From NCBI RefSeq assembly GCF_023101685.1, contig NZ_CP082164.1, positions 1,550,001 to 1,614,000 on the forward strand: DNA of 64,000 nucleotides, given 5' to 3'. Positions 42,137-64,000 of the stretch are shown here, piece by piece. How positions within the stretch are numbered: the first letter of the stretch is position 1; each line of letters begins with the position of its first letter. The stretch is from Bradyrhizobium sp. 186 (GTDB taxonomy: Bacteria > Pseudomonadota > Alphaproteobacteria > Rhizobiales > Xanthobacteraceae). Below the pieces are notes generated by a model. It saw only the letters and a program-made list of their open reading frames with translations. It did not search any database and had not been told where the DNA came from. The position numbers and the translations under genes are program-made.

Positions 42137-42425
42137 GCCTCGCGCGAAGCAATTTTATCAAGTAAAATCAATATGTTGATGCGTCTTGGTCAGCGACCCG
42201 AGGCTCTCCGCGACCCCGCCATTTCTGCCTCCTCGGCAAGAATTGCCCTAAGCCGGCCCCCCGCGCGATTGCTTCACCGGAATGCCGCCTATATTAAAGG
42301 AGTGCTCTCAGCCGCTTTTGACCGGGCCAGCCAGCCCCGGAGGAACCAGAGTTCCCCGGGACTCATTGTGCCCCGGCCAAAAGCATATCGCGGACCGCCA
42401 ACGCCGCCGTCAAAACCGCAAAACC

Positions 42426-43607
42426 ATGCTCAACAGTCTGGATATCGAAGGCCGTCCGCAGGACACCAGGGTCGTTGTCGCCATGTCGGGCGGCGTCGAT
42501 TCCTCGACGACGGCTGCGCTGTTGAAGGCGGAAGGCTATGACGTCGTCGGCATCACGCTCCAGCTCTACGACCATGGCGCGGCGACCCATCGCAAGGGCG
42601 CCTGCTGCGCCGGCCAGGACATCCACGACGCCCGCGACGTCGCCGCAAAACTCGGCATTCCCCATTACGTGCTCGACTACGAGGACCGCTTTCGCGAGTC
42701 CGTCATCGACAATTTCGCCGACTCTTACGCGCTCGGCGAGACGCCGGTGCCGTGCATCGAGTGCAACCGCTCGGTCAAGTTCCGCGACCTCCTGAAGACC
42801 GCGCGTGAGCTCGGCGCCGCCGCGCTCGCCACCGGCCACTATGTCGCCTCGCGGCGCCTCGCCGACGGCTCCCGCGCGCTGGTGTGCGCGGCCGATAGCG
42901 AGCGCGACCAGAGCTACTTCCTGTTCGCGACCACGCGCGAGCAGCTCGACTATCTGCGCTTCCCGCTCGGCGACATGACCAAGGCCGAGACCCGCGAGCT
43001 CGCCCGCCGATTTGGGCTGGCGGTCGCCGACAAGCACGACAGCCAGGATATCTGCTTCGTGCCGACGGGCCGATACACTGACATCATTACCCGCCTGCGG
43101 CCGAACGCGATGGATCCCGGCGACATCGTCGATCTCGACGGCCGTCTGCTCGGCCAGCACCACGGCATCGCCAATTTCACCGTCGGCCAGCGCCGCGGCC
43201 TCGGCATTGCGGCCAGCGCGCCGCTGTTCGTGGTGCGGCTGGACGCCGCCAACCGCCGCGTCGTCGTCGGCCCGCGGGATGCGCTGAAGATGCACCGCAT
43301 CGTGCTGCGCGACGTCAACTGGCTCGGCGATGGCGACATCGACCGCGCCATCGGCAACGGCCTCGAAATGTTCGTGCGCGTGCGCTCGACCCGCAGCCCC
43401 CAGCCGGCGTGGCTGCGCGGCGGCAACGGTCACTACGAGGTCGAGCTCGTCGCCGGCGAAGAGGGCGTTTCGCCGGGCCAGGCTTGCGTATTTTATGACG
43501 CGCCCTCGGGCCAGGCGCGCGTGCTCGGCGGCGGCTTCATCCAGAGCGCGGCGGCCAAGATCGCGAGCAGCGCCGTGCGGCCGCTCGCCGAAGCCGTGCG
43601 CGGCTAA
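42426..43607 (+). CDS. mnmA: tRNA-specific 2-thiouridylase MnmA
   Basis: 393 aa. It adds the 2-thio group to the wobble uridine of Lys, Glu and Gln tRNAs. The PP-loop is [14 protein letters not shown]. The catalytic cysteine pair is carried by [13 protein letters not shown] and the later ACVFYD segment. [22 protein letters not shown] and [20 protein letters not shown] are typical blocks. The ATG at 42426 is not preceded by a strong ribosome-binding site. An ORF extension to 42282 is unlike the family. The 340-bp gap before it, up to fliK, holds the sigma-54 site of fliK and nothing else recognised. Confidence 0.96.
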
Positions 43608-45180: not shown

Positions 45181-45257
45181 GGCGGGGTAGCTCAGCTGGT
45201 TAGAGCACGGGAATCATAATCCTGGGGTCGGGGGTTCGAGTCCCTCTCCCGCTACCA
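45181..45257 (+). tRNA. tRNA-Met (CAT), elongator type
   Basis: 77 nt with encoded CCA. The acceptor is GGCGGGG with TCCCGCT (G1-U72 wobble and G7-U66). The D-arm contains AGCTCAGCTGGTTAGAGC, the anticodon stem is CGGGA/TCCTG with loop ATCATAA, and the T-arm is GGGGGTTCGAGTCCCTC-like. It is a tRNA-Met rather than initiator because position 1-72 is paired. A recombinase gene follows 280 bp downstream, so its 3' end may be an attachment site. Confidence 0.95.
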
Positions 45258-48237: not shown

Positions 48238-51200
48238 ATGGGAAATCCGGTGACCATCGCTGACGATTTCGGCGAGCAGAGCCGACTGACCGGGGTATAC
48301 GGACGCCTCCGCCTGAAGCTGCTTGATCTCTCCAAGAAGAACCGGATGCTGAATTATAACCTCGGCAGCAGGTCCAAAAGGCACCTGCAGATCGTCGACG
48401 AGGTCATGGACGAGATCTACAAGAAGTTGGCCGGCGACGACGCAACGCTTCGGATAGCGCCGCTGGATGAGCCGGAGGACGTACCACCGGAAGAAAAAAC
48501 TGAAGAGTTCATAGGCGCTCTTGAGCATGCGAAGGTCTCGCATCTTGAGTACCTGACGAAGTTGGAGGCGCTCGAGAGCGCCGGACGCGACGACGAATTG
48601 GCGTTGGCAAAGCTCGAACGCGAACTTCGCGACCATATTAGGAGCGAATTCGGGCTTCCTCCTCGCCCCAAGAAGGCTGATATCAACCGGGCGGATCTCG
48701 CCCGCCAGGCCGGCATCGATCCGAATTTCGAACTCAGCCCCGTGAAGACCAAGGCTTCGCATAGCGATGGAGCCCTGCAGACGCTCAGGTTTCCGGACGA
48801 GCTTGACCGGATGATGGGTAAGATCGTCGCGGACGCGAAACTGGCGGAACAGGAAATGGGCATTTCGACCCTCTTTCTGTCGTTCGGTTTCCTCGAATGG
48901 TACGAGTCGGACGCGTCCGATAAGAAGGCCTTCGCCCCACTGTTGCTTCTTCCGGTGACGGTTGATGTCAAAAAGCAGTACGGTAAAAACACCTACTCGT
49001 TGTCGGCGAGCGAAGGCTCGGCTGAATCAAACCTCAGCCTCCAAAAGCTTCTCGAGACCAACGCAGCGTTTCACCGCAAACTTCCCGTATTTGAAAATGG
49101 CGACGACGAGAAAGTCGGCTCGATCGAGGGATACTTCGACGGGGTCAGGGAAGCCATCACGGGGCTCGGACGTTGGCAGATTCGCCGATGGATGGTCCTC
49201 GGCCATTTCGCATTCGGCAGGTTTGCAGTCTACGCGGATTTGAGCCCGGACAACTGGACGGTGGATCCCATTGATCACCCCCTTGTTGGGTCGATCTTGC
49301 GGGGCAGCGACGGCACCAAGGGCACTGGAGATGGTGCTCTGCTTCCGGGCGATCCGGCGGACTATCCGATAGACGACCCGCAAATCGAGGCCATCGCTCC
49401 GTTTTTGATTCAAGACGCCGATGCGTCGCAGCATAGCGCTCTCATCGACGCCATGAAGGGCCATAACCTTGTGATCCATGGTCCGCCAGGGACAGGGAAA
49501 TCGCAGACGATCGCGAACATCATCGCGAACGGCCTGGCAGCGAACAAGACGATCCTCTTTGTGGCGGAAAAGCAGGCTGCGCTCGAGGTGGTGAAGCGCA
49601 GGCTTGGAAAGGCCGGGATCGGTGAATTCTGCCTCGAGCTTCACTCGGACAAGTCTTCGCCCAAGGCGGTACTCGAAAGCATCGAAGAGCGGTTGAAAGT
49701 CCGACCGATCGCAGTGCCGGCGTCACCCGGACGTTCTCAGCACGAAAATAGGGTTGAGATTGCCCGGTATCTCGACGCCTTGCACGCTGTCCAGGCGAGC
49801 GGCCGGACCCCGTTCGACCTGATTTGGCAGGCGCTGCGGGGATCGACTTTGAATTCTGGTGCCGTTGAATCCTTGTCTGGGGTCGGGTTGCCGCCGGAAC
49901 TGCTCAACAGCGCTGCCAACCTTTCGCAAGTCGAGGCCGATTTGGGTCGATTTGCCGGCGCCAGCGAAACGTTCCTGGGTTCGTTTGGGCATCCGGCGGA
50001 GTCCCTTTGGAGCAAGGCCGGATTGGGTAATGTCCAGAGCGCGCAGATCGATGATTTGCTTGCGTGCCTGGTTAAAATCGACGGGTCGGCGCGCACGCTC
50101 TCGTCCTGCATCGTGGACAACTCCGACTTTGAAATAGGCTCTATTGCCGACCTGAGGGCAACCGTCAAAGCTGGTGAGGCGCTGCAAGACGGGCCCGTTC
50201 CCGAATTGGTAGGGGAGCTCGCGCATCTCGATCCGGATGAGCTCATCCGGGCCCTGAACTCGCAACGAAAGCTCGACGAGGTCGCGCGGGCGCTCGCGGC
50301 TTGTCCGTCGATCGGAACACAGAGTATCGGAGTGTTTCGGTCGGCCGTCGAACTTGGCAAGATGCCGTTGTCGGAAATCTATTTTGAGAACACTCCGGCG
50401 GATCTGCTCAGGATTGCCAACGAAACCGTCGAAAAGGACCTGCTGCTCAAGAATGCGATCGCTGAGTTTTCTCCGGTCCTTGAGCTGTTCAAGCTCGATG
50501 GGAAGTGCTCTGCGACATTGCTCGATGCGGTTGCGAAAGCTATCATAGCGTCGACCAGGATTCCCCAGGAGCACCGGTCCGCGCTCTACATAAATCAATC
50601 GGTCGACGTGGCCGCGTTCGGACCGCTACGGGAGCGCTGGGTCTCCCTGGCCGCAAAGGAGCGCGAGTGGCGGCAGTATTTGTCCGCGTATGGACGAGAG
50701 GCATGGCCCGCTCCTGGATCGCTGAGGAACGCATCCGTACTGCTGAAAAAGGGTAATCTGGGCCGTGCGTTCGCTGCGATAAGCGGGGCCGCAAAGCCGG
50801 TCAACGAACTCGTCGCCCGTCTTGGTCTGGCGGATTCGGAAAAACCCGCCGATGATTTGGCGGCGCTGGCCGATCACGTCGATGCCATCGACACGTTTGA
50901 AGAGGATGAAGGCGCAGAGCGGGTTTTGAGCACTAGCTGGCTCGGTCTGGATACCAAGTTCGATGTCATCGATTTCGGCATCAAGGTGCGGCGATATCTT
51001 ACGGACAGCGTCGGGCGCGACTTGACGCTGCGCCTGCTTCAGATCCCGCAGGAGGCTGTCCGGCGCCTTCATGGTTTGGAAGCGTCGGCGACCAATCTGC
51101 GCAAAATCATCGCGGCGCGGACAGCCCCTCTCGACGACCGATCGGTCGACCTCACGATGAACAGGTTGGATAATCAGATCGCCTTGATGCGCCGGGTCGT

Positions 51201-54200
51201 CGCCGTGGATGGAGTCGACGCCCTGGCCGCGTTTGAGATTCCGATAAGGGAACTAGTCGAAATCTCGAAGCTCGAACTCGAGCGCGGCAGGGTCCGGTCG
51301 GTCCTGGACGCTTGTCCGCTCAAGGTCGCCGCCGAGCATTTCGCGGGCCTCCCCGACGGCGAAGCGAAAGCGCTCGCCGCACTTGATTGGCTTCGAGCCG
51401 TCAAGTCGATCGGAATGCCGGAAAATCTGCTCCGGCGGCTGAGTTCGCCGACGGCGGCGGACGAATTCGCCCGGCTGAAATCCATTGCAAACCGGGCGGC
51501 AGGCCCGCTCGCCATCTATGACAGCCAGGTGGAGATGTTGAGCTCGCAGTTCGGAACGGCGGCCCATGCCGGGTCGGAGCCCGGCATCGTTTCGGAGCAG
51601 GTGGCGGCACTTCTTGAGCGAAAAGAGGAATTGCGCGAGTTGCTCGCCCTGTACCGTGAGCGGCGGACTTTGGAGTCTCTCGGACTTGGTGAGTTTCTCG
51701 AGCGTGCCGACCGCGAGCGGATTGCGCCGCTGCATCTCCCTCAATTGCTTGAGGCCGTGCTCGCGCGGCGTGGCGCCGAGTTTGCCAAAAAGGCGGCAAG
51801 CGCCCTTCAGGACAACACGGGCTCTTCCCTTGAGGTTCGCAGGAAGCAGTTCGCTGAAAAGGACCGGTCCAAGATCAAGGACGACCGGCTGCGCATCAAG
51901 GCAAATCTCCTCACCAAAAAGCCTTTCCCGGGCTCGGACTTCGGGAAGAAAAAGACCTGGACGGAGATGGCGCTTCTCGAACACGAGATCGCCAAGCAAA
52001 AGCGGTTCGTCCCCGTGCGGACACTGCTGGCCCAGGCCGGGAAGTCCATACAGGCGCTCAAGCCGTGCTTCATGATGTCACCGCTGTCGCTTGCGAAATT
52101 CATGAAGGCTGGGTCCCTGAGCTTCGACATTCTCGTGATCGACGAAGCGTCGCAGATGCGGCCCGAGGACGCGCTCGGCGCCATGCTTCGGTCCAAGCAG
52201 ATAGTGGTGGTCGGCGACCAGAAGCAGTTGCCGCCCACGGACTTTTTCGCGCGCTCCGGAGACGCAGGGACGGGCGATGACGATGACTTCGAGGACCTCG
52301 ACGATGAATCCATTCTCGAAAGCTGCCAGAAGACCTTCGGTCAACGCCGTCCGCTCCGGTGGCACTACAGGAGCCGCTGCGAGAGCCTGATCCGTTTTTC
52401 CAACGAGCAATTCTACCGCCGGGAACTGATCACTTTCCCGGCGTCGAAGCCGGCCTCGTTTTCCATCGACCTCGTGCGGGTGCAGGGAACGTTCCAGGCG
52501 AGATGCAATCCGACGGAAGCGAGCCGCGTCGCGGAGGAAGCTATCACTTTCATGCGGCACCACGCTGCCCTTGATGAGGACGAGATACCGTCGCTCGGTA
52601 TCGTGGCGCTCAACATTCAGCAAATGGAATTGATTCAGCAGGAATTGAACCGCCTGATCGACGACGACGTGCTGGTGGACCAATACCGTGAGAAGGTGTT
52701 GAACAAGGGCGAGGAACTGTTCGTGAAGAACCTCGAGAACGTACAGGGTGACGAGCGCGATTTCATCTTCATCTCGATGACGTACGGTCCGGAGGTCGGT
52801 ACCAACGTGCTCAAGCAGCGTTTCGGACCGATCAACCGGAAGCAGGGGCATCGTCGATTGAACGTCTTGTTTTCGCGGGCGCGGTCACGTATCGGACTTT
52901 TTTGCTCTTTTGGATCGGCCGACGTCGTGCCGACGCCGGATAGCTCCGAAGGCGTCCATGTTTTGCGGAAGTATCTGGAGTACGCGGAAACGCGCGGCCG
53001 TGTGTCCGTACTTTCGGGACCGGGCGCGGATGCCGACAGCGACTTTGAGATCGAGGTCGCGGAGAGGCTGCGGGCGCGGGGCTACGTCATCGACTATCAG
53101 GTCGGGGTTTCCGGGTACAAGATAGACTTGGGGGTCCGCCATCCGGACCACCCCGAACGCTACCTTGCCGGAGTTGAGTGCGATGGCGCGACCTACCATA
53201 GCAGCAAGAGCGCCCGTGATCGGGACCGCCTGAGAGAGGAGGTCCTGAACGACAAGGGCTGGGACATCGTCCGCGTTTGGTCGACCGACTGGTTCGACAA
53301 TCCTTCGCTTCAGACAACCCGTCTCCTTGAGAAGCTGGAGTTGTTGCGGCGTAAGCCGGCGGTCGCACGGTCCGAGTACGCCATCGTGACGGAGGCGACG
53401 CAGCCCGTCGACGAAGCAGAGCCGGTAGAATCCGTGGGCGGGTCGGCCGATGTTGGTGCACCCGAGACAGATGCTGCGGAAGCGGGTGGCGAGGAGCAGC
53501 CGGTACAGCCGGAGACAAATGGGGGATTGCAAGAAAAATCATCGCTCACTGAAGCCAAATGCTTCGAGGCGCTGCGCCAGTTTCGCGACGAGGTGGTTGG
53601 CAATGAAATGGCCGACTGGGAGCCGCATCGGTCCATCTTGCGCGATGCGATGATCGAGACCTTCGTGCGGCAGAGGTTTGTCGAACCGGACGACTGGTTT
53701 GACAAGGTTCCGGGGTATCTTCGGCAGGGGACCAATCCCATTGAGAAGACCCGTTACATTGACCGTATCTGCGACATTGTCGCCAAGTTGAACGACGAGG
53801 AAAACGTTGCGGCGCTGGCGGATCGACGAGGCGCTCCGGACTTGTTCGACGGCATTCCGGATGCGAAGCAACGCAACTTGTCATCGAACCCTAGTGGACA
53901 ACCCGCAACGCCTCCTGCCGGTACGCCGAACGATGACGAATATGTTGCGACGAACTTTTCATTGCTGGGGGTGAGGCTCGATCCGGCGCGGTTTTATGAC
54001 CGGGAGTACGAGGCTGTCTTGAACAGCATGGTCGCTCTTGCGCTAAAGCACGAGGCTCCAATCTATGAAGACGTGCTGGTTGCGCGCATCGCCCGTGCCC
54101 ACGGATTTCAACGGTCCGGCGACCGGATCCAGAGAGCGGTTTCGAAGGTCGTCGGAAGGCGATATCGAAAGACTGAGGATGACGGCCGCACGGTAATCTG

Positions 54201-54462
54201 GGGAGAAAATTCACCCGAAACTATCCTGGTCCCCTATCGGAAGGGCCAATCGGAAATCAGGTCTCACACCGACACACCCGTTGCCGAACTCGCAAGTCTG
54301 GCCTTGCCGTATATTCGCGTCCGCCTTGCGGATGACGACATCCTGTACAGGATGGCAAGCCATTTCCAACTAGGCCGGCTTCGGGAGCCGACCCGCGTCA
54401 GTTTTCGGTCTGCCATCAACCTCGCAAGACAAGTGCTTACCAACGAGGTCACCCAGACCTAA
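48238..54462 (+). CDS. Giant DUF4011 - SF1 helicase - nuclease - DUF3320 protein
   Basis: 2074 aa. Residues about 20-90 carry the DUF4011 block VYGRLRLKLLDLSKKNRMLNYN. Walker A is GPPGTGKS at 415-422 and motif II is VIDEAS with D1302/E1303, so nearly 900 residues of mostly helical insert separate the two. VGDQKQLPPTDFF and NVQGDERDFIFISMTYGP (near 1505) are later helicase motifs. At 1600-1690 lies a Vsr/MTES_1575-like nuclease domain with D1630 (YKIDLGV) and E1647-x-D1649 (ECDGATYHSSKSARDRDRLREEVL). DUF3320 follows near 1915-1975. Proteins of this layout occur in phage-defence islands. Confidence 0.88.
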   Translation: MGNPVTIADDFGEQSRLTGVYGRLRLKLLDLSKKNRMLNYNLGSRSKRHLQIVDEVMDEIYKKLAGDDATLRIAPLDEPEDVPPEEKTEEFIGALEHAKVSHLEYLTKLEALESAGRDDELALAKLERELRDHIRSEFGLPPRPKKADINRADLARQAGIDPNFELSPVKTKASHSDGALQTLRFPDELDRMMGKIVADAKLAEQEMGISTLFLSFGFLEWYESDASDKKAFAPLLLLPVTVDVKKQYGKNTYSLSASEGSAESNLSLQKLLETNAAFHRKLPVFENGDDEKVGSIEGYFDGVREAITGLGRWQIRRWMVLGHFAFGRFAVYADLSPDNWTVDPIDHPLVGSILRGSDGTKGTGDGALLPGDPADYPIDDPQIEAIAPFLIQDADASQHSALIDAMKGHNLVIHGPPGTGKSQTIANIIANGLAANKTILFVAEKQAALEVVKRRLGKAGIGEFCLELHSDKSSPKAVLESIEERLKVRPIAVPASPGRSQHENRVEIARYLDALHAVQASGRTPFDLIWQALRGSTLNSGAVESLSGVGLPPELLNSAANLSQVEADLGRFAGASETFLGSFGHPAESLWSKAGLGNVQSAQIDDLLACLVKIDGSARTLSSCIVDNSDFEIGSIADLRATVKAGEALQDGPVPELVGELAHLDPDELIRALNSQRKLDEVARALAACPSIGTQSIGVFRSAVELGKMPLSEIYFENTPADLLRIANETVEKDLLLKNAIAEFSPVLELFKLDGKCSATLLDAVAKAIIASTRIPQEHRSALYINQSVDVAAFGPLRERWVSLAAKEREWRQYLSAYGREAWPAPGSLRNASVLLKKGNLGRAFAAISGAAKPVNELVARLGLADSEKPADDLAALADHVDAIDTFEEDEGAERVLSTSWLGLDTKFDVIDFGIKVRRYLTDSVGRDLTLRLLQIPQEAVRRLHGLEASATNLRKIIAARTAPLDDRSVDLTMNRLDNQIALMRRVVAVDGVDALAAFEIPIRELVEISKLELERGRVRSVLDACPLKVAAEHFAGLPDGEAKALAALDWLRAVKSIGMPENLLRRLSSPTAADEFARLKSIANRAAGPLAIYDSQVEMLSSQFGTAAHAGSEPGIVSEQVAALLERKEELRELLALYRERRTLESLGLGEFLERADRERIAPLHLPQLLEAVLARRGAEFAKKAASALQDNTGSSLEVRRKQFAEKDRSKIKDDRLRIKANLLTKKPFPGSDFGKKKTWTEMALLEHEIAKQKRFVPVRTLLAQAGKSIQALKPCFMMSPLSLAKFMKAGSLSFDILVIDEASQMRPEDALGAMLRSKQIVVVGDQKQLPPTDFFARSGDAGTGDDDDFEDLDDESILESCQKTFGQRRPLRWHYRSRCESLIRFSNEQFYRRELITFPASKPASFSIDLVRVQGTFQARCNPTEASRVAEEAITFMRHHAALDEDEIPSLGIVALNIQQMELIQQELNRLIDDDVLVDQYREKVLNKGEELFVKNLENVQGDERDFIFISMTYGPEVGTNVLKQRFGPINRKQGHRRLNVLFSRARSRIGLFCSFGSADVVPTPDSSEGVHVLRKYLEYAETRGRVSVLSGPGADADSDFEIEVAERLRARGYVIDYQVGVSGYKIDLGVRHPDHPERYLAGVECDGATYHSSKSARDRDRLREEVLNDKGWDIVRVWSTDWFDNPSLQTTRLLEKLELLRRKPAVARSEYAIVTEATQPVDEAEPVESVGGSADVGAPETDAAEAGGEEQPVQPETNGGLQEKSSLTEAKCFEALRQFRDEVVGNEMADWEPHRSILRDAMIETFVRQRFVEPDDWFDKVPGYLRQGTNPIEKTRYIDRICDIVAKLNDEENVAALADRRGAPDLFDGIPDAKQRNLSSNPSGQPATPPAGTPNDDEYVATNFSLLGVRLDPARFYDREYEAVLNSMVALALKHEAPIYEDVLVARIARAHGFQRSGDRIQRAVSKVVGRRYRKTEDDGRTVIWGENSPETILVPYRKGQSEIRSHTDTPVAELASLALPYIRVRLADDDILYRMASHFQLGRLREPTRVSFRSAINLARQVLTNEVTQT

Positions 54463-54491: not shown

Positions 54492-54827
54492 CTATTCGCA
54501 CCAAACAACTTTCCCTGCACGAACCCAGAAATGCGATTTGCATCCTTCGCCCACCCAGACCGATGGATGCAAAGATACGTGCCCATGTTGATTGACCGAA
54601 ATATCCCACCTCGGCTTCACACCCTTGAGCAGGAGCATCTCCAGCCGCTGACCGCAACCGCACGGGCACCGTAAGCCTACAGACCAGTCCTCGTCGTCTT
54701 CCCGAGCGACCACGAGATTCCAGAGCGGCAGCCTCTTGGGCAGCATGTCCCCCTCGACGACCACCATGGACCGTCGCGGCGTCAGAGCCGCGGCAAGCCG
54801 GCGCCACCATAATGGCTTCTGCTTCAT
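54492..54827 (-). CDS. DUF6527 zinc-binding protein of a ubiquitin-like operon
   Basis: 111 aa. The sequence WSVGLRCPCGCGQRLEMLLLKG carries C54, C56 and C58; C96 and H99 (GCKSHFWVRAGKVVWC) probably complete the metal site, with C110 nearby. The pattern matches the DUF6527 proteins found beside bacterial E1, E2 and ubiquitin-like genes. Role unknown. Its ATG overlaps the stop of the JAB-E1 gene in ATGA (54824-54827). It converges on the giant helicase gene with a small 6-bp hairpin between. Confidence 0.85.
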   Translation of the reverse strand: MKQKPLWWRRLAAALTPRRSMVVVEGDMLPKRLPLWNLVVAREDDEDWSVGLRCPCGCGQRLEMLLLKGVKPRWDISVNQHGHVSLHPSVWVGEGCKSHFWVRAGKVVWCE

Positions 54828-56215
54828 GCCACCCTCCGCCGTTGAGCAAGCGCTGGCAGCCCAAGCAGCGGGTCTGTTTCGCCCGCCGCCACTGGAAACC
54901 GGTTGTCGGCAACAAACTGACTTTCCGCGAACGTATCTTCGTCCCCTTCCGCCAGCATGAATATCGAACGCGCCCGCGCCTCATTTGCAAAATCCCGGAA
55001 TGGGAAGAGCCGTGCGATGAATTCGATCACGCAGGCCGACGCCGCCCGCATGTTTAGGGTAATTACCCCTGGCGCCTCTTCGGCCATGCCGCGCAAATAG
55101 CCATCCTTAATCTTCTGGGCATGAGCATCAGGCGCGACCCGTGCGAGATACTCACTCTCCAGCAGCGCGGCATCGTAGACACCTCGATCCATCAGGCTTG
55201 ATCCGCCTGGAAAGACATAATCCACGCGCCCATAGACCTCTTCGATCCGGCGTTCGCCGGTCGACGTCTCCCGGGTCGGTATCGCCACGCCGACATCGAA
55301 CAGCGGCAACGCAAAATAGGCGCTCATCCGATCCGCAATATGGCGTCCCTCGGCAGTATCGACACAGGAGAAAAGCGTATCGGCTTCGCATGCCGCCAAA
55401 ATCGCGTCCGCCGTGGCAACCGAATCCAAAATAGGAATAACCTCGCAATCGGGCCGGTACCGACGGATCGCGTTCGCGAACGTCTCGACTTTGAGCGAGC
55501 CGATATCCAGAAGAGTCGAATTCAGGATTCGGTTGAGATTGCGCTCCTCCAGTTTGTCAAAATCGATGAGTATAATTTCACCGACGCCGAGACGCGCCAA
55601 CTGTTCGGCCACGATCGAGCCTGTTCCCGACACGCCGATCACACAAACGCTCAGCTTCCCGAGCCAGGCGCGCATCCCGCTGGTAAAGGCCATTGCTGGC
55701 ACTATGGGGCCAGCAGCCGTCGCACCTTCGTTCCACCATGAGGAAATGTCGGTGCCGACGACCATCGTCAGATCGACGTTTCTAGCGGTTCGGCCATTCT
55801 CGTAGATACGGGCGCGCATCGCTCCGTCCGGTATCATAATCGCAGAACCGGCTACTTGATTAGTGCCCTGTTGAAGGGCGCTCATCAGCGCGAGATCACT
55901 TTTGTCGTCGATGTCGGAAAAAGCGTAGAACCCGCTAGGGTGAGAATGCACCGCGATCGCGATATCGCCTCGCGGTGCCGCCCGGTCTATGGCCGCTTCC
56001 ACATATTCGCCCGGCCACGTGATTGAATCCGACCTTCGTGTGCAGTGCTGATACGGCACCGCGATGATCTCGCGACCAAGCAGTTTGCTCCGGCGCTTGC
56101 CAACCAGCGTACAAAGGAGCAGAGCGGCGGCCTCAAGGCCGTCGCCCGGGAAAAGATGCTCACGCAATTGATCAGAGATCTTTTGCGGAAGAACAAGCGT
56201 TACCTGCCGTTTCAT
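54824..56215 (-). CDS. JAB peptidase - E1-like (ThiF) adenylyltransferase fusion
   Basis: 463 aa. Residues 1-140 form a JAB/JAMM metalloprotease: E28 and the motif H90-S-H92-P followed by S100-x-x-D103, all zinc-site residues present. Residues about 175-420 are an E1/ThiF domain with the nucleotide loop GVSGTGS (194-200), LIDFDKLEERNLNR (216-229) and FSCVDTAEGR (281-290). It would remove or mature a ubiquitin-like tag and also activate it. No cysteine lies between C284 and C395, the span where classical E1 enzymes hold theirs. Its start overlaps the Ubl-E2 stop (ATGA). Confidence 0.92.
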   Translation of the reverse strand: MKRQVTLVLPQKISDQLREHLFPGDGLEAAALLLCTLVGKRRSKLLGREIIAVPYQHCTRRSDSITWPGEYVEAAIDRAAPRGDIAIAVHSHPSGFYAFSDIDDKSDLALMSALQQGTNQVAGSAIMIPDGAMRARIYENGRTARNVDLTMVVGTDISSWWNEGATAAGPIVPAMAFTSGMRAWLGKLSVCVIGVSGTGSIVAEQLARLGVGEIILIDFDKLEERNLNRILNSTLLDIGSLKVETFANAIRRYRPDCEVIPILDSVATADAILAACEADTLFSCVDTAEGRHIADRMSAYFALPLFDVGVAIPTRETSTGERRIEEVYGRVDYVFPGGSSLMDRGVYDAALLESEYLARVAPDAHAQKIKDGYLRGMAEEAPGVITLNMRAASACVIEFIARLFPFRDFANEARARSIFMLAEGDEDTFAESQFVADNRFPVAAGETDPLLGLPALAQRRRVA

Positions 56216-56970
56216 CGCTCGACCTCACGGCGCAGAGATTCGTCAACGAGCGCGAGGTGCGTCGCGAGGGTATCCCGGGAGGCATCCCACGGCCGGTGAC
56301 GAGACCAGCGTTGAAAGAGCAAGCCCGTCACCGTTTCCATGTGCTGAGTCTGCTCAATCACTGCGCCCGATAGGAGCGCCAGCGGGGGGTAACAATAGAA
56401 CATGTCGAGTTGGGCGCCGGGGTAACTGACCGGCACCTCGATCGCGATATCTGTCGCGGATACACGATAGCCCGGCGGGACCGGGTATTTGCGAAGAATA
56501 AGACAGCGGCGGCCCACATCGACCAATGTTTCCCAGCGCAGTCCGAGATCATCGAGATGCCGCTCATCTTGCGGCAACATAGCGAATTGGACGCGGCGTG
56601 CCGCCGCCATTTCACCGTTGTTGATCTGCCGGGGCGTCAGCCGTAGCTTTTCGATGCCGTTGTGGCGCAGATCAATCGTGTAGTTGAGGTCAACTTCCTT
56701 CTTCGGCTCACCCGCGATCTTCAGAATGATGATCCACGGCGTGTCGGGATTGAAGCCTGCCTGCTTGATGGCGTGCCGCACAACGATTTCCGGGTGAAGC
56801 GATTCAATGACCACCCCCTGGACATTGAGCTTCCACGGTCCGTCTTGATGGTGATCATCGTGGTGGTGGTGGTCACCGTGATGATGGCCATGACCATCAT
56901 GATTGTGATCGCCACGAGCCTTCTCACTGCGTCCGCCGTCCTGCGGCGTTTTGTCAATTTCCGAGTTCAT
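56212..56970 (-). CDS. Ubiquitin-like domain - E2-like fusion with histidine-rich N-terminus
   Basis: 252 aa. Residues 22-41 hold 12 histidines. Residues about 47-116 form a ubiquitin-like beta-grasp unit of the multiubiquitin type (WKLNVQGVVIESLHPEIVVRHAIKQAGF, then IDLRHNGIEKLRLTPRQINNG). Residues about 130-245 match prokaryotic E2 family E (LPQDERHLDDLGLRWETLVDVGR, YPGAQLDMFYCYPPLAL, WSRHRPWDASRDTLATHLALVDESL). The only cysteines are C156 and C193, the latter a candidate for the transfer cysteine. GGAGG sits five bases before the ATG. It is the first gene of the three-gene operon. Confidence 0.85.
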   Translation of the reverse strand: MNSEIDKTPQDGGRSEKARGDHNHDGHGHHHGDHHHHDDHHQDGPWKLNVQGVVIESLHPEIVVRHAIKQAGFNPDTPWIIILKIAGEPKKEVDLNYTIDLRHNGIEKLRLTPRQINNGEMAAARRVQFAMLPQDERHLDDLGLRWETLVDVGRRCLILRKYPVPPGYRVSATDIAIEVPVSYPGAQLDMFYCYPPLALLSGAVIEQTQHMETVTGLLFQRWSRHRPWDASRDTLATHLALVDESLRREVER

Positions 56971-56996
56971 CTGTGCCTCCGTATGGCGTTAGTTCT

Positions 56997-57023
56997 CCGG
57001 TCGTTTCAACTTGGGGTGACCGG
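56997..57023. promoter_or_regulatory. Inverted repeat in the divergent promoter, candidate WYL operator
   Basis: CCGGTC (56997-57002) and GACCGG (57018-57023) are exact inverted half-sites 15 bp apart. A second feature, GCTACG repeated twice with 2 bp between, lies nearby (57037-57050). Both are between the divergent Ubl-E2 and WYL genes. Confidence 0.4.
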
Positions 57024-57071
57024 CAGGATAGACTTTGCTACGGTGCTACGTCAGATTCGGACGTGCCCGGC

Positions 57072-58094
57072 ATGCGCTTGGACAAAACGAAGAAAATTCT
57101 CGAACTCGCCCGCGCCCTGGCAAGCAGCGCCGAGGGCCTGACGCTGGCTGAGATGTGTCAGATGACGGGTTGCAGTCGTCGCACGGTCGAGCGGATGCGT
57201 GACACCATCCGCGATGTGTTCCCGCAGATGGAGGAAATCTCCGATCACCCGACGAAGCGCTTCCACATTCCCAAAGGGCTTGACGGCTTCTTTCAGGACC
57301 CGACGACGGAAGAACTGAGTGATCTCGGCATGGCCGTGGCAGAACTGCGCGAGGCGGGTGCTACAGCCCGCGCTGGATCCATGGCCCAACTGGGTACAAA
57401 AATACGTGCTGCGATGCGACATGGGCGGCGGCGCGCGACCGAAACCGACGTGGAAGCTCTTTTGCTAGCCGAACTCATCGCCGTTCAGGCAGGACCGAAG
57501 CCAGCGGAAGACCCGGTTGTCTTAATGGTCCTTCGAAAAGCACTGCTCGGAATGAAGATGCTGCGGTTTACCTATCACGGCGGCTCAAGACCGGGCGCAT
57601 CACGCGACGTTATTCCGTTTGGCATCATTTTTGGCCGCATGAACTATCTGATCGGCGCGGATGCCGGGGCCACGAAGCCGAAGAACTGGCGTCTCGACCG
57701 GATCGAAAACATTGAGTGCCTCGATGCAGCAGCATCTCCGCCGACCGATTTTGACCTCGTGAAATTTGCCAACACTGCCTTTGCCTATTTCGAAGGGCAG
57801 CAGGAAGATATCGTGCTGCACGTCCTGCCGAGCGGCATGGATGACTTCAAGAACTATCGTTTCCACTCCAGCCAAACGGTCCAGAATCATCCTGAAGGCG
57901 GTGTCATCGTACGGTTTCGCGCCAGCGGCATGCTCGAACTGGCCTGGCATCTCTTTTCGTGGGGCAACAAGATCGAAATTGTCGAACCGATCTCCTTACG
58001 CCAGCAATTGACCACCGAATTACGGGTGGCACTGGCGCACCACGAGGAGCCGCTACGCTTTGGCTATAACCTCGATTCTAAAAGAGCCTCCTGA
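57072..58094 (+). CDS. WYL-domain transcriptional regulator
   Basis: 340 aa from ATG 57072. Winged helix-turn-helix near the N-terminus: TKKILELARALASSAEGLTLAEMCQMTGCSRRTVERMRDTIRDVFPQMEEI. The middle is WYL-type: LRFTYHGGSRPGASRDVIPFGIIFGRMNYLIGADAGATKPKNWRLDRIENIECL, and a C-terminal WCX-like dimer domain follows (LHVLPSGMDDFKNYRF, VRFRASGMLELAWHLFSWGNKIEIVEP). WYL regulators commonly repress defence operons until infection. It is divergent from the Ubl operon and 32 bp upstream of the TM0106-like gene. Confidence 0.87.
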   Translation: MRLDKTKKILELARALASSAEGLTLAEMCQMTGCSRRTVERMRDTIRDVFPQMEEISDHPTKRFHIPKGLDGFFQDPTTEELSDLGMAVAELREAGATARAGSMAQLGTKIRAAMRHGRRRATETDVEALLLAELIAVQAGPKPAEDPVVLMVLRKALLGMKMLRFTYHGGSRPGASRDVIPFGIIFGRMNYLIGADAGATKPKNWRLDRIENIECLDAAASPPTDFDLVKFANTAFAYFEGQQEDIVLHVLPSGMDDFKNYRFHSSQTVQNHPEGGVIVRFRASGMLELAWHLFSWGNKIEIVEPISLRQQLTTELRVALAHHEEPLRFGYNLDSKRAS

Positions 58095-58126
58095 TTTTTA
58101 GTTGTTACGTCCAATTCTGTCGCATC

Positions 58127-61100
58127 ATGCCTTTACATGCCAAACCCATGAAACCACTTTCAGCATCCCGCCTTAACGATTTTCTCGGTTGTCCGCACCA
58201 GGCGGCCCTTTGGCTCGACGATGTCAAGCCGGAGGGTGAAGTCGATGCGACGCTCGTGCTTATTCGCGACAAAGGTTTCGAGCACGAAGCAACGGTACTT
58301 GCCCAGCTCGAAAAGCTGCATGGTTCCGCTGAACACATCAAAGCTGAGGGAAGTCTGGCCGATCGCGTGCAACTCACACGAGAGGCAATCGAACGTGGGG
58401 CGAGGCTCATCTATCAGGGAGCGCTGTCTGAGGAGCCTTGGCTCGGTTACCCAGACTTCATTTTGCAGACGGGCACGCCAGAGGCACCGCGGTTTGAACC
58501 TGAAGATGCCAAGCTCTCGCGCAAGGCCAAGGGCGAACATCTGCTGCAACTCGGGATCTATGCCGAATTGCTCGAAATCTTGTTTGGCATTCCCGTACAG
58601 AGTGGCGCGATCCACGTCGCAATAAATGAACCAGAACGCTTTGACCTCCGGCGTACCCGATACATTCTTAGTCGCCTTAAGCGCGGTTTCGAGCGTTTCG
58701 TCGCCGATAAGGCGCGGGTCACGAAACCCCAGCCTTGCGCCGCATGTTCGCAATGCGATTTTAAGGCCCGTTGCGAAGACGAATGGCGGAAGGCCGATAG
58801 CCCTTTTTTTGTCGCGGGTCTCAGCGGCGCACAGGTGGTGAAACTGGCGGCTACCGGCATCCAGACGCTTTCCCAGCTTGCTGCACTCCCGCCGGCTACC
58901 AAGATCGACGGCATGGGCGCTGATACGGTCGCAAAACTGTCCGCCCAGGCTCGCCTTCAGCTCAACGCCGCGAAAACTGGCCAGCACGCGTTCGAGTTGT
59001 TACCGGCCTCGCGGGGCCGTGGATTTGCGATGCTCCCCGCGCCAGATGATGGCGATCTCTTCTTCGACATGGAGGGTGATCCGCTTTCGGGCCCAGGTCT
59101 CGAATATCTCTTCGGTATCTTTGCGCGCTTCAGCGGAGCGAAAGAACCGACTTTCAAACCTATCTGGGCTCATAATCCAGCCGAAGAAAAAGTCGCGTTT
59201 GAAACCACGATACGGTTCTTTGTCGAGCAGATCGCGCGGCATCCCGCGGCGCACATTTATCACTATGCTGCCTATGAGCCCGCGCACCTCAAAAATCTTG
59301 CCATGCGCTATGCGACGATGGAGGCGGAGCTCGATCAGTTCCTGCGCGAGCGCCGCTTCGTTGATCTCTATCGCGTAGTGGTTCAATCACTTCGTGCTTC
59401 AACGGAGGCCTATTCACTCAAAGACCTTGAAGCAATCTATTGGCACGCGCGAACAGGCGAGGTGAAAACCGCGTCCAGCAGTATCGTGGAATACGAGCGC
59501 TGGTGTCTTAGCGGAGACAACGCAATTCTCGATTCCATCGCGGATTACAACAAGGATGACTGCGTATCGACCGCGCATTTGCGGGACTGGCTGGAAGGCT
59601 TGCGGCCTGCCGGTATCAATCTCGAAATTGTTGATGACACCCGCGAGGAGAAGCGCGAACGATCGGTCGAACGCGCCCAGCTAGAAGCACGCAAACAAGC
59701 GCTCGCCGCAAGTGTCCGCGCATCGCCGCACGGAGATGCGCGCTTGCGTGAACTGGTGGCAGAGTTGTTGTGGTTTCACCAGCGATCGCAAAAGCCGGGA
59801 TGGTGGGCGGTTTTTGAGCGGCAGGCCTGGTCCGAAGATGAATTGATCGATGACGCCGAAAGCCTTGGCGGTCTGCGGCTCGATGCTAATGCTCCTGCGG
59901 TTCAGGTGAAGCAGTCGAAGGATACGACTTATGTCTTTCCACCGCAGGATACGAAACTGAAAGTCGGTGATACGCCCAGTATTGCCGAGACCTTAGGTTA
60001 CGCCGGGAGCATCGTGAAGCTTTCGGCCGAGGATGGCACTGTTGTGCTACGCCGTGGCGTGAAATCCGGTGCCATGCCGGAACGGTTCAGCCTGGTTCCC
60101 GCACCGATAAACCTGCAAGGTCTTCCCAACGCAGTTATCGCATTTGCCGATCGCGTTGTTCGCGGCCCCAGGCGCGAAGACCAGGCGCTGGTCGACCTAC
60201 TCATGCGCCGTCCGCCCCGCCTGAGGGGTCGCGTGGCTGCCCCGGTACGGAACCCCGATGAGCCGCTGACTGACGCCGTGATCCGCGCCGTGCTGGATCT
60301 CGATCATAGCTATCTCTTCATTCAGGGCCCGCCGGGTACGGGTAAGACATATAACGCCGCGCACGCCATTATTGCTTTGTTACGCGACGGAAAGCGCGTG
60401 GGTGTTTCATCGAACTCCCATAAAGCGATCAACAAGTTGCTGGGCGAGGTGGAGAAACTTGCAGCAAAGGCGAGCTTCCGTTTTAGCGGTGTCAAGAAGG
60501 GCAATAAGGATAAGCCTGAGACAGAGTTCAAAGGTCTCAACATCACGACGATCACAGACTCAAAACAGGCCGCATCCGAACACCGCCTCGTTGGCGGGAC
60601 CGCGTTTCACTTTTGCACGGAAGATCAACGCGGAACTTATGATTACCTATTTGTCGATGAAGCGGGACAGGTGTCACTCGGTAATCTTGTTGCCATGGCA
60701 GGTGCCGCCGCCAATATCGTTCTTATCGGGGATCAGATGCAGTTGCCGCAGCCCGTGCAGGGCGTGCATCCCGGCGAAACCGGACTGTCCTCCCTCGAAT
60801 ATCTTCTTGAAGGCAAGGCGACGGTAGCTGAGGATCGCGGTATCCTTTTGAACGAAACGCACAGGCTGCATCCTGCGTTATGCACTTTTATTTCCGAAGC
60901 GATCTATGACGGACGTCTGGAAGCGCATTTCTCAACGGCAGAACGTTATCTCGTACTCAAGCAAGATGCGCATCCCGCGCTCCGGTCGGCGGGATTGTCC
61001 TTCGTTCCTGTCGCGCACGATGGCTGCACGCAATCGAGCCGTGCCGAGGCAGAAGCCATCGTGGAACTCGTCACGAACGCCTGTACTCATAGCGTGGTTC

Positions 61101-61477
61101 GCGATGGCAAAGAGATGCCAATAACGCTGAAGGATATTCTGATCGTTGCGCCGTATAACCTGCAAGTGAATCTTCTCAAGCAGCTTCTGCCTGAAGGCGC
61201 GCAGATCGGCACCGTCGACAAGTTTCAGGGGCAAGAGGCGGCTATCGTTATCGTTTCCATGACAACTTCAAGGGGCACCGAGGCTCCGCGCGGAACGGAA
61301 TTCCTGTTTAACCCAAATCGTTTCAACGTCGCCGTGAGCCGCGCCGAGTGTCTGGCGATTGTCGTTCATGGCGCCGAGCTTTTGGAGGGGGCCTGGACCA
61401 AGATCGAGGACCTTCGCCGCCTCAACTTGTTCGCGCATGCCGAAGCGATCGCGCTTCAAGCGAATCCAAAGTGTTAA
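58127..61477 (+). CDS. TM0106-type RecB-like nuclease - RNase H-like - SF1 helicase
   Basis: 1116 aa. The N-terminal RecB-like nuclease region shows LGYPDFI and FEPEDAKLSRKAKGEHLLQLGIYAELLE, then four cysteines C204, C207, C210 and C216 (an Fe-S- or zinc-type cluster). The RNase H/DEDD-like part has DLFFDMEGDPL and IADYNKDDCVSTAHLRDWL. The helicase has Walker A GPPGTGKT at 734-741, motif II FVDEAGQ (D844/E845), GDQMQLPQP and a C-terminal TVDKFQGQEAAIVIVSM and NRFNVAVSRAE. It is 32 bp after the WYL gene, so probably cotranscribed. ATG at 58148 is an alternative start. Confidence 0.88.
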   Translation: MPLHAKPMKPLSASRLNDFLGCPHQAALWLDDVKPEGEVDATLVLIRDKGFEHEATVLAQLEKLHGSAEHIKAEGSLADRVQLTREAIERGARLIYQGALSEEPWLGYPDFILQTGTPEAPRFEPEDAKLSRKAKGEHLLQLGIYAELLEILFGIPVQSGAIHVAINEPERFDLRRTRYILSRLKRGFERFVADKARVTKPQPCAACSQCDFKARCEDEWRKADSPFFVAGLSGAQVVKLAATGIQTLSQLAALPPATKIDGMGADTVAKLSAQARLQLNAAKTGQHAFELLPASRGRGFAMLPAPDDGDLFFDMEGDPLSGPGLEYLFGIFARFSGAKEPTFKPIWAHNPAEEKVAFETTIRFFVEQIARHPAAHIYHYAAYEPAHLKNLAMRYATMEAELDQFLRERRFVDLYRVVVQSLRASTEAYSLKDLEAIYWHARTGEVKTASSSIVEYERWCLSGDNAILDSIADYNKDDCVSTAHLRDWLEGLRPAGINLEIVDDTREEKRERSVERAQLEARKQALAASVRASPHGDARLRELVAELLWFHQRSQKPGWWAVFERQAWSEDELIDDAESLGGLRLDANAPAVQVKQSKDTTYVFPPQDTKLKVGDTPSIAETLGYAGSIVKLSAEDGTVVLRRGVKSGAMPERFSLVPAPINLQGLPNAVIAFADRVVRGPRREDQALVDLLMRRPPRLRGRVAAPVRNPDEPLTDAVIRAVLDLDHSYLFIQGPPGTGKTYNAAHAIIALLRDGKRVGVSSNSHKAINKLLGEVEKLAAKASFRFSGVKKGNKDKPETEFKGLNITTITDSKQAASEHRLVGGTAFHFCTEDQRGTYDYLFVDEAGQVSLGNLVAMAGAAANIVLIGDQMQLPQPVQGVHPGETGLSSLEYLLEGKATVAEDRGILLNETHRLHPALCTFISEAIYDGRLEAHFSTAERYLVLKQDAHPALRSAGLSFVPVAHDGCTQSSRAEAEAIVELVTNACTHSVVRDGKEMPITLKDILIVAPYNLQVNLLKQLLPEGAQIGTVDKFQGQEAAIVIVSMTTSRGTEAPRGTEFLFNPNRFNVAVSRAECLAIVVHGAELLEGAWTKIEDLRRLNLFAHAEAIALQANPKC

Positions 61478-61606: not shown

Positions 61607-63040
61607 CTACTCGGCCGCCTCGCCCGTCGCCTCGATCATCGGCACATCCAGGCTCCCGATCTCCTGCATGGCGCTGCCGGCGATGCCCTGGAGGTCTCCG
61701 TAAAGCCCCGCAGTGGAATCGAGCACACTGTTGAGCTGCTCCTCGCGTTTGGCCCACAACCGCGTCATGGTGTTGCGCTCACGATTGAGGTCGGCCTTCA
61801 TGTCGGTGAACTTCTCCACCACGGCCTGGATGCGATGTCGGAAGCGGGGGCCGGTGAGGTAAGCATACATCACCTCAGTCTTCGTCTGCTGACCTTCTTG
61901 CGCCTTTCGGCTGGCGGCGACGTCGATCAGGGACTGGCGGAGCGCGACGGCGAGCGGAATAGCGAAGCGCGGCTCCGCTACCCAGATGTTGTCAACCAGA
62001 TCGAAACTCTCGACGCCCCTGGGCAGTGCGCTCGAGACGATCAGCGCGACCTCCGCCTTCGCGGCCCGCTGGTCATCGCGCAGTTTGCCCAGCCAGGCGT
62101 GATTCCAGGCCTTCGTTCGCTTCGATTCCCAGAGAATCGTGCCACAGCGCTGTCCATTGGCGGCCAGCACCCCGTGCACCACGTCGCCGCCGAACTCACC
62201 CTTCGCCACCGGCTCGATCAGGTCACGGGGGAAGCGGCTGCGGAGCAGGGATTCGAGTTCGATTTCGAGCGCTTCGCCCTGCAACTGCTGCGAGCCCTGC
62301 TCCGCCTTGCGGCGCAGTTCCTCGATCTGGCGCTGCATGCCGGCGAGCTGGGCCTCCTTTTCGCCGACCTTGGACTTGAATGCATCCTCGGCCTCGATCC
62401 TGGCCTTGTCCCGGACGGCGGCGAGATTCTCCTGCACCTTTTTCTCTACGGTCAGTTCGACCTCGCGCTTGGCGTCCTCGAGCTCCCGCTGCTTGCGCAA
62501 CATATCGGTCTGGGCCTGCTGGGCTTCTGCGAGCTTCGTAGTGTTCGCGGCGAGCATCTGCTGCAGGTCCGCAAGCTGCCGGTCGCGCTGACCAAGATCA
62601 TCGGCCAGCGCCAGACGGGCTTTCTTTGCCTCGGCTTCGGCGATGGCCGCGCGTTCGGCGCGCATCTTGATCGCCACCTGTTCGTCCAGAGTTTCCCGAG
62701 CCTTGGCGAGGTCTTCCTGCGTTTGACGGAGGTGGGCTTCGCGACGGCCAAAGTCGGCTTCCTTGGCCGCGAGCTGCGCCTCGAACTGCTTGCGGGACGC
62801 GGCGACGATCGGCGCCGCCAACGATTCGGTCAGCTTGATCTCGGTGCCGCATTTCGTGCAGATGATCTGTGGGTCGCTCACGGTATCGGTCCTGTGGTGA
62901 TGGTGTGTGATTGTATCCGCATTGCCCGCGCCGACCGTGCTGGATCGCGACGTTATCCCCGGCAATCGGGCCGGCCGCGGCAGTGGCGACGCCCTGTACG
63001 GTGCCGTCGGTTTCGGCGTCTCGGCGGGATCGTGCGTCAT
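61607..63040 (-). CDS. DUF2130 protein with zinc-ribbon and coiled coil
   Basis: 477 aa from ATG 63040 (GAGGAA upstream, one base after the preceding stop). A tail of about 50 residues, including HHHH, leads to a zinc-ribbon-like start IICTKCGTEIKLTESLAAPIV. A long coiled coil (about 75-265) follows, then the DUF2130 globular region: LESLLRSRFPRDLIEPVAKGEFGGDVVHGVLAANGQRCGTILWESKRTKAWNHAWLGKLRDDQ, a nuclease-like E/K core. GTG 62881 with AGGA upstream is an alternative start closer to the family norm. Function unknown; often in defence-rich loci. Confidence 0.85.
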   Translation of the reverse strand: MTHDPAETPKPTAPYRASPLPRPARLPGITSRSSTVGAGNADTITHHHHRTDTVSDPQIICTKCGTEIKLTESLAAPIVAASRKQFEAQLAAKEADFGRREAHLRQTQEDLAKARETLDEQVAIKMRAERAAIAEAEAKKARLALADDLGQRDRQLADLQQMLAANTTKLAEAQQAQTDMLRKQRELEDAKREVELTVEKKVQENLAAVRDKARIEAEDAFKSKVGEKEAQLAGMQRQIEELRRKAEQGSQQLQGEALEIELESLLRSRFPRDLIEPVAKGEFGGDVVHGVLAANGQRCGTILWESKRTKAWNHAWLGKLRDDQRAAKAEVALIVSSALPRGVESFDLVDNIWVAEPRFAIPLAVALRQSLIDVAASRKAQEGQQTKTEVMYAYLTGPRFRHRIQAVVEKFTDMKADLNRERNTMTRLWAKREEQLNSVLDSTAGLYGDLQGIAGSAMQEIGSLDVPMIEATGEAAE

Positions 63041-63041
63041 G

Positions 63042-64000
63042 TCAGTTCCTCGTGGCGCGGAGGTCGCGGTCGCGCAGGATGGCTTCGACGATCCGGCGAA
63101 GCCGGCGCACTGAGCCACCGCGCCAATTGCGCGCCACCGCGGCGTGTTCGGCGCCGTCAAGCGGCGGCACCCAGCTTTCGTCGAGACCACGTTCCCTGGC
63201 CAGGTCCGCAATCACGGCCGGCAGCAGCGCACCGAGATCGCCCGCGCTCGGCTTCGGAAACTGAATCACGCGAAAGCGGTCGCGGAGTGCGCCAGGCAAA
63301 GGGTCGAGGCTGTTGGCCGTCGCCACGTAGGAGACCTGCGATAGATCGAGATTCGTCTGAAGCGCCGGGTCGGGGTAGCGCGCACTGGTTTCGGGCTCAA
63401 GGAAACCGAGGAGGCAATCCCATAGCCGTCCATAGTCATTCCGTACCGCGGCCTTCTCCAACTCCTCAAGCTGGATCAAAACGCTGGCATGTTTGGCCTG
63501 TGCAATCGCGAGAAACGGATGACACGGCTCGGCCGAATACCATCGGCGGTCAGTACCACCGAAGACCGCGCCGTCGGCACGCGAGGAGTCCTCGCACCAG
63601 ACGTTCAGGCCGAGGACTTGTCCGAGCCGACGAGCAAACCGAGATTTGCCCCCGCCAAAACCGCCGACCAAAATTAGCGGACGGAGCTTCACCGTGGTAC
63701 GACCGACGAGGTCGGTGAGCGCAAAATCGATCACATCTGATGCATAGGGAAATTCGGACAGGAGCGTGCTGCGGACCTGATGCAGCGGCGGTACTGCGAC
63801 CAGCGGCAACGGCACGTTGATGACGCCCTTGAGCGGTCCGAGGATCTCTTTGAGCTTGACGTTCTTCATCGCCTCGTCGCTCAAACGAGCGACCACGAGG
63901 TGATGTTCAGGCACCACTTCGGTCGAAAATGCTACCTGATGCAGGATCTCGGCTTTTTCCTTCGCCTCCTCGCGAGCCTGCTCCTCTTCCTCTTGTTCCC
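63042..64000 (-). CDS. AAA-family ATPase, N-terminus beyond the window
   Basis: At least 319 residues; the frame stays open to the edge with an acidic, helical start (EEEEQAREEAKEKAEILHQVAF). Walker A is GGFGGGKS, followed by RFARRLGQVLGLNVWCEDSSRADGAVFGGTDRRWYSAEPCHPFLAIAQA, the hallmark of a LonB/MoxR-like AAA family, and VSYVATANSLDPLPGALRDRFRVIQFPKPS (sensor 1 and arginine finger). The stop is one base from the DUF2130 start, so they are one operon. An interior GTG at 63917 is unlikely to be the start. Confidence 0.85.
   Translation of the reverse strand, partial: EQEEEEQAREEAKEKAEILHQVAFSTEVVPEHHLVVARLSDEAMKNVKLKEILGPLKGVINVPLPLVAVPPLHQVRSTLLSEFPYASDVIDFALTDLVGRTTVKLRPLILVGGFGGGKSRFARRLGQVLGLNVWCEDSSRADGAVFGGTDRRWYSAEPCHPFLAIAQAKHASVLIQLEELEKAAVRNDYGRLWDCLLGFLEPETSARYPDPALQTNLDLSQVSYVATANSLDPLPGALRDRFRVIQFPKPSAGDLGALLPAVIADLARERGLDESWVPPLDGAEHAAVARNWRGGSVRRLRRIVEAILRDRDLRATRN

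Follow-up and report, generated by a model that had tools for sequence, protein, structure and literature searches.

A Bub operon of Bradyrhizobium linked to a DriD-like WYL regulator, two DriD-type boxes and a RecB-like nuclease/helicase

What switches on a bacterial ubiquitin-like conjugation operon, and with what partner does it act? A locus of Bradyrhizobium sp. 186 raises both questions. In the stretch that we analyzed (64,000 nucleotides, contig NZ_CP082164.1, positions 1,550,001 to 1,614,000; hereafter the window, in whose own numbering all coordinates are given), a three-gene Bub (bacterial ubiquitination-like) operon lies divergent from a WYL-domain regulator gene, which is followed by a nuclease/helicase gene. 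The operon encodes a fusion of a ubiquitin-like domain (Ubl) with an E2 domain (BubA-BubB, or BubAB), a JAB-E1 fusion (BubCD) and a DUF6527 protein, here called BubE. With a probability of roughly 0.68, we read the locus as a five-gene unit triggered by single-stranded DNA (ssDNA), in which BubE-BubCD-BubAB is divergent from a DriD-like WYL regulator that precedes a RecB-like nuclease/helicase. The gene make-up, the fusions, the conserved linkage, two operator-like boxes and the homologies come directly from the sequence, and from these we infer the steps of the mechanism as activities.

The identity of the operon is confirmed. A sequence-only reading had assigned Ubl, E2, JAB, E1 and DUF6527 to a single operon and had noted the divergent WYL regulator beside it, and both family matches and locus comparison bear this out. 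The same reading suggested that the packing might be undescribed, which does not hold. JAB-E1 operons with a Ubl-E2 fusion are already listed by Iyer 2006 (PMC1779556, Table 1 row 6e), whose type 6e comprises a polyUbl, an E2/RWD-like domain, a JAB-E1 fusion and a small metal-binding protein, with the E2-like domain fused to the polyUbl in some species. The packing is very probably also that of the structurally solved Citrobacter system (PDB 9d59/9ea8/9eae). A Citrobacter plasmid locus, L028, encodes a 362-residue Ubl-E2 fusion followed by JAB-E1 and DUF6527 genes. The solved BubA chains end at residue 229 of this fusion (...NNG), BubB chain 9eae_C takes over from the residue after it, the numbering of the PDB entries runs on across the two proteins (BubA 155-229, BubB 234-361), and the division falls at the same Gly|Glu joint as in the window fusion (NNG|E). 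Because the chains abut at this glycine under continuous numbering, the solved proteins very probably derive from a Ubl-E2 fusion like that of the window.

To place the window among its relatives we compared 27 loci, comprising 11 of class A (window included), 11 of class B and 5 of class C. They came from a scan seeded with the window BubAB (5 loci), from BubCD searches and from 4 of 58 plasmid hits; 41 of those 58 plasmids with BubCD relatives were typed as conjugative. The BubCD searches (E <= 1e-60) covered 385 genomes of the class, 265 of the genus and 398 of the phylum, of which 2, 17 and 3 were positive, the window genome being included each time. Two loci were left out of the counts, L005, which is broken into several open reading frames (ORFs), and L043, which lost its BubAB side at a contig end. 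Class A, with one Ubl, consists of the window, L001, L002, L033-L039 and L049. Class B carries longer fusions (L003, L004, L028-L032, L040-L042 and L050, with L030 and L041 near-copies), and class C (L044-L048) is divergent, with BubA and BubB split in three of its loci. The stretches of the 16 class B and C loci reach only about 5 kb to each side. A DUF6527 gene is present in 27/27 loci. In the BubCD tree class A forms a single branch with support of 100/100, and 8 of the 17 Bub-positive genomes among the 265 of the genus belong to it. The five-gene linkage described below rests on these 11 class A loci, eight of them in one genus.

The regulator points to a likely trigger. The WYL protein (57072..58094, forward strand, with a conserved start at ATG 57072) has the architecture wHTH-WYL-WCX and aligns with DriD without gaps over residues 1-322, with 160/322 identical residues and 336 bits. 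All 11 class A WYL proteins are 50-53% identical to DriD and share with it a putative recognition helix, RRTxER(M/L)RD. A homologous WYL gene stands divergent to BubAB in 11/11 class A loci, none is present in the 16 class B and C stretches, and the window genome has no other gene of this type at E <= 1e-10. DriD is activated by ssDNA and turns on an operon divergent from its own gene while its own expression is unchanged; the promoters that it acts on are weak, and the DriD site extends over their -35 region (PMC12340889). Homology thus suggests that the window protein is a DriD-type regulator that would bind ssDNA. Given the DriD-like divergent layout, ssDNA from damage or phage may turn on both the Bub operon to the left of the regulator gene and the nuclease/helicase to its right.

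Two sequence elements fit this layout. Alignment of the class A BubAB-WYL intergenic regions revealed a conserved inverted repeat, box 1 (TACGTC-N7-GACGTG; 57047..57065, forward strand), between BubAB and the WYL gene. From this alignment and the published DriD site, ATACGAC-N7-GTCGTAT (PMC12340889), we drew a relaxed pattern, TACGWC-N7-GWCGTA, which box 1 of the window matches at 11/12 positions. A scan with it returned, unsought, a second site in the WYL-nuclease intergenic region, box 2 (TACGTC-N7-GTCGCA; 11/12; 58106..58124, forward strand), which lies 12 bp past the WYL stop on the 5' side of the nuclease/helicase gene. Boxes occur on both WYL flanks in 11/11 class A loci and match the relaxed pattern at 10-12 of 12 positions. 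Of the boxes of at least 11/12, 18 belong to the other 10 class A loci and 2 to the window, and every one of them lies at a WYL flank; the remaining 2 of 22 flank sites are 10/12 (site 1 of L036 and site 2 of L001). Box 2 and the WYL stop overlap in L049, and box 1 of L038 fits the DriD core at 12/12. In the class B and C stretches, 16 in number and 189,846 bases in all, there is a single box of at least 11/12. Just upstream of box 1 we place the likely WYL promoter (GTGACC, 17-bp spacer, TACGGT; 57016..57044, forward strand), so that box 1 likely stands between this promoter and the WYL start codon. The evidence for the boxes is their conserved position; the signal in any single sequence is modest. 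Outside the Bub setting, a stretch without a Bub match (L103) carries a 35%-identical WYL gene with DriD-type boxes (11/12) at 3279 and 7296, some distance to either side, and is perhaps another DriD-type regulon.

The gene beyond box 2 is as regular a member of the class A loci as the regulator. It encodes a 1116-residue RecB-like nuclease / RNaseH-like exonuclease / SF1 helicase (58127..61477, forward strand; conserved start probably ATG 58148), which passes the TIGR03491 model (TM0106-family RecB-like nuclease) at 247.9 bits against a cut-off of 97.45. The sequence-only reading likened the WYL gene to the regulators of defense operons; a WYL-Bub link has indeed been published (PMC13373217), but the reading overlooked the nuclease/helicase beyond the WYL gene and the two boxes that tie it to the Bub operon, the nuclease/helicase and second box lying outside its span of 54492..58094. 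The nuclease/helicase follows the WYL gene in 11/11 class A loci, with L001 cut by a contig end, and these proteins are 61-91% identical to that of the window (66% over 151 residues for L001); at E <= 1e-10 nothing matched in the 16 class B and C stretches. Two surveys of the genus, each over 257 genomes, placed nuclease relatives of 62-100% identity and WYL relatives of 60-100% identity in exactly 8 genomes, and these are the 8 with class A Bub (the sets of 257 and 265 genomes differ in part). Distances among BubCD, WYL and nuclease proteins correlate at r 0.96-0.97 (10 loci; 0/5000 permutations as high). Only the 62-100% set is tied to Bub, as more remote relatives (36-45% identity) occur outside the Bub setting in the genus, where 51/257 genomes are positive at E <= 1e-100, the 8 included.

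Several observations weigh against an ssDNA-activated five-gene unit. The relaxed pattern was written after the box 1 alignment and is therefore not independent of box 1. With strict DriD half-sites, box 1 is clear in 4/11 loci (L002, L038, L039 and L049; 0-1/300 shuffles as good), marginal in the window (21/300) and in L001, L033 and L035 (16-26/300), and indistinguishable from shuffles in L034, L036 and L037 (145-295/300); in L034 and L037 the best strict match lies elsewhere. Sites with at most 2 mismatches are not enriched in the window (6 vs 3.5 by chance), and over the whole window genome the one-mismatch pattern occurs at 26 places, two of them boxes 1 and 2, and is rarer than the control (97). 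The residues through which DriD contacts RNA polymerase (PMC12340889, section 7) are identical in the WYL protein at 10/16 positions, against a background of 0.49 (P = 0.20). By eye, the class A intergenic alignment gave no consistent -10 element for the Bub promoter. In three genomes a distant WYL gene (30-31% identity) and a nuclease/helicase gene (41-43%) lie side by side and divergent (L098, L099 and L100), with no adjacent Bub and no DriD-type boxes. The predicted DUF6527 model found no convincing fold match, which leaves a protease role for it putative. Finally, according to PMC13373217, protection against phage by Bub had yet to be demonstrated.

The distant WYL-nuclease pairs bear on whether the nuclease/helicase belongs to the unit. 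They indicate that the pair can stand alone, with the Bub tie a property of one clade, and WYL and nuclease/helicase may be a module of their own; in one of the three genomes, G588, a different contig carries a class C Bub. The nuclease/helicase could then be an independent defense gene that merely shares Bub's regulator in one ancestral, co-inherited island, and the separate Hhe/PDC-S37-like gene that borders Bub on its far side in the window, present in none of the other 26 stretches, would suit such an island. We consider this somewhat unlikely. The genes are adjacent in 11/11 loci of the clade and their distances match at r of about 0.96, a second conserved box stands just ahead of the nuclease start, and a common regulator is in itself a functional link.

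A second alternative changes the sign of the control. The WYL protein might be a CapW-like repressor that ssDNA or damage strips from the two boxes, so that the unit is de-repressed and not activated. CapW, or CapH with CapP, is found beside 219 of 544 Bub operons (PMC13373217), box 1 has the position expected of a repressor site, downstream of the likely WYL promoter and ahead of the start codon, and the polymerase-contact residues of DriD are, as noted, not specially conserved. Against this stand the 50% identity to DriD over the full length and the DriD-like operator. The closest solved chains are those of DriD (336 bits), and among the 12 PDB sequences returned up to E = 10 by a sequence-only search no entry is named CapW or BrxR. 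Repression of this kind is, in our judgment, unlikely, and we retain activation by ssDNA as the preferred account.

We turn to what the operon would make once activated. BubAB is a protein of 252 residues (56212..56970, reverse strand) with an N-terminal tail, one beta-grasp Ubl and an E2 domain of the Prok-E2_E (BubB) type. The tail (residues 1-43; 56842..56970, reverse strand) is rich in His and Asp, with 12 His, and is predicted to be disordered (predicted local distance difference test, pLDDT, < 50 over residues 1-41). It is His-rich in 8/11 class A loci, whose called ORFs have 10-17 His there, and lacks His in L002, L038 and L039; among the 120 BubAB homologues listed, 107 have a tail with at least 6 His. 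The Ubl (residues 44-119; 56614..56841, reverse strand) matches PDB 9ea8 at 72.8 bits and ends in ...INNG, with G119 as the putative mature C-terminus. The window BubA gave this one Ubl match beside its disordered tail, and so departs from the two or more Ubl domains usual in BubA; since Iyer 2006 (PMC1779556) lists a solo case, we did not treat Ubl number as defining Bub.

G119 and the INNG joint are identical in 121/121 aligned rows (the window and the 120 listed homologues), and the split BubA genes of L044 and L045, which are near-copies, and of L048 stop exactly at the equivalent glycine (...DQTEG-stop), a motif that L047 carries within a BubA-BubB fusion. An invariant joint at which split proteins end argues that BubAB is cut after G119 to release the Ubl, with JAB or DUF6527 as candidate enzymes. 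That the fusion instead stays uncut, the Ubl serving the E2 to which it is joined in cis, as scaffold or sensor and not as a modifier, fits the single polypeptide of 23/27 loci (L047 and the 22 of classes A and B, which were sorted by this very feature), but is highly improbable given the split BubA proteins that end at that glycine, the invariance of the joint in the 121 rows and the separate Citrobacter PDB chains that meet there.

In the E2 domain (residues 120-252; 56212..56613, reverse strand), the WSRH motif is the constant element, with W222, S223 and R224 in 27/27 loci and H225 in 26/27. The sequence-only reading had chosen C193 for mutation, but a key role for it across the family is not supported, as this position is Cys in 11/11 class A, 5/11 class B and 0/5 class C loci, a pattern that marks it as typical of the clade and not as the family nucleophile. 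The 27 loci share no Cys in the E2. The only other Cys of the window E2, C156 (56503-56505), is Trp in 99% of the 121 rows and in the other 10 class A loci, and is possibly a private change.

BubCD (54824..56215, reverse strand) joins a JAB domain (H90, H92 and D103) to an E1 adenylation domain and is homologous along its length to PDB 9ea4 (449 bits, residues 7-457); H90 and H92 are invariant in the 27 loci and D103 has one exception. The DUF6527 protein (54492..54827, reverse strand; PF20137, 3.7e-21) keeps C54, C58, C96 and H99 (C-x3-C-x37-C-x2-H) in 27/27 loci, likely a metal site. It resembles the small metal-binding protein of type 6e, whose signature is C-x3-C-x35-38 with the last H and C in reverse order (PMC1779556), and a PDB sequence search returned no solved relative at E <= 1.

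Taken together, the ssDNA-triggered unit would work as follows. DNA damage, for example by phage, would produce ssDNA, which would bind the WYL domain and allow the WYL dimer to bind the two boxes flanking its own gene. RNA polymerase would be recruited through box 1 for Bub transcription and through box 2 to the nuclease/helicase promoter; lying between the regulator's promoter and start codon, box 1 may also limit WYL expression. Cleavage of the BubAB polypeptide after G119 would separate Ubl and E2. G119 would then be adenylated by the E1 part of BubCD, and E1 and E2 would hand the Ubl to target proteins, with the JAB part and DUF6527 as candidate enzymes of processing and removal. The nuclease/helicase would act on the same damaged or invading DNA. 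On this arrangement, DNA damage would probably induce the tagging system and the nuclease at the same time. Whether a distinct Bub clade as a whole constitutes such a fixed five-gene ssDNA-triggered unit, with one DriD-like sensor, two operators, a single and usually His-tailed Ubl and the nuclease/helicase, is in our estimate an even bet.

Compared with known systems, the window combines familiar parts in a new setting. Citrobacter Bub (PDB 9d59, 9ea4, 9ea8, 9eae and 9eav) shows the same folds as the window BubA, BubB and BubCD, and the Citrobacter loci L004 and L028 have Ubl, E2, JAB-E1 fusion and DUF6527 in the order of the window, with Ubl and E2 in one polypeptide. Citrobacter Bub, however, has upstream Ubl domain(s), whereas the window clade has a single Ubl and usually a His-rich tail; two PDB titles, one of them from Citrobacter, describe multi-ubiquitin protein filaments, and class A is without those upstream domains. 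Where the window clade has a DriD-like WYL gene, two boxes and a linked nuclease/helicase, L028 has a winged helix-turn-helix (HTH) pair like CapK and CapS, and two other class B loci (L030 and L031) have HTH and peptidase genes in the place of the WYL gene. The L028 pair, a hypothetical and a winged-HTH gene upstream of Bub, is CapK/CapS-like by position; the locus lies near transfer genes and integrases on a conjugative IncHI2A plasmid. Type 6e of Iyer 2006 mostly has 2-3 Ubl domains, with the one solo case, and in the parts of PMC1779556 that we consulted no WYL regulator, operator, nuclease or His-rich tail is mentioned. Caulobacter DriD resembles the window regulator in its divergent-operon layout and operator spacing and is 50% identical to it; the genes that it activates there include didA, bapE and an operon encoding a TonB-dependent transporter (PMC12340889). 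The word "ubiquitin" is absent from the text of that DriD paper, as are "helicase", "DriD" and "activator" from that of the Bub paper PMC13373217. Bil (BilABCD) likewise has Ubl, E1, E2 and JAB in one operon, but the catalytic Cys of its E2 lies in a CEHH motif (PMC11354881) that the window E2 does not contain; we rejected membership in Bil, as there is no family-wide E2 Cys across the 27 loci and a BilA chain matched only at E = 0.094. A Bub operon with fused Ubl-E2, JAB-E1 and DUF6527 is thus already known, as is WYL control of Bub. Apparently new within the searches made here, the main Bub papers standing outside this comparison, are the fixed five-gene unit with its DriD-like regulator, two DriD-type boxes and nuclease/helicase, and the His-rich single-Ubl form.

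The unit lies within a wider defense region. Convergent with the DUF6527 gene is a 2074-residue DUF4011 / SF1 helicase / MTES_1575 nuclease / DUF3320 protein (48238-54462, forward strand), which is close to the anti-phage Hhe and PDC-S37 models, falls below the NCBIfam Hhe cut-off and occurs only in the window among the 27 Bub stretches. Close to where the region starts are a tRNA-Met gene (45181-45257, forward strand) and, a little before it, an mnmA-like tRNA-modification gene (42282-43607), and we found no repeat marking an island end. Adjoining the nuclease/helicase is a DUF2130 protein (61607-63211, reverse strand) without a PADLOC match at E <= 0.001.

Bub has solved structures, and the window clade offers it a concrete trigger, ssDNA acting through a DriD homologue with a matching operator. 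DriD is a structurally understood activator, and the clade also supplies a partner enzyme whose expected substrate is DNA. The conditions that induce Bub, and the partner with which it works, thereby become testable. If our reading is true, ubiquitin-like conjugation would be joined to SOS-independent sensing of DNA damage and to DNA destruction, and the His-rich tail would make each conjugate a natural metal-binding tag; where the tail is His-rich, endogenous conjugates may be recoverable on metal resin without engineering.

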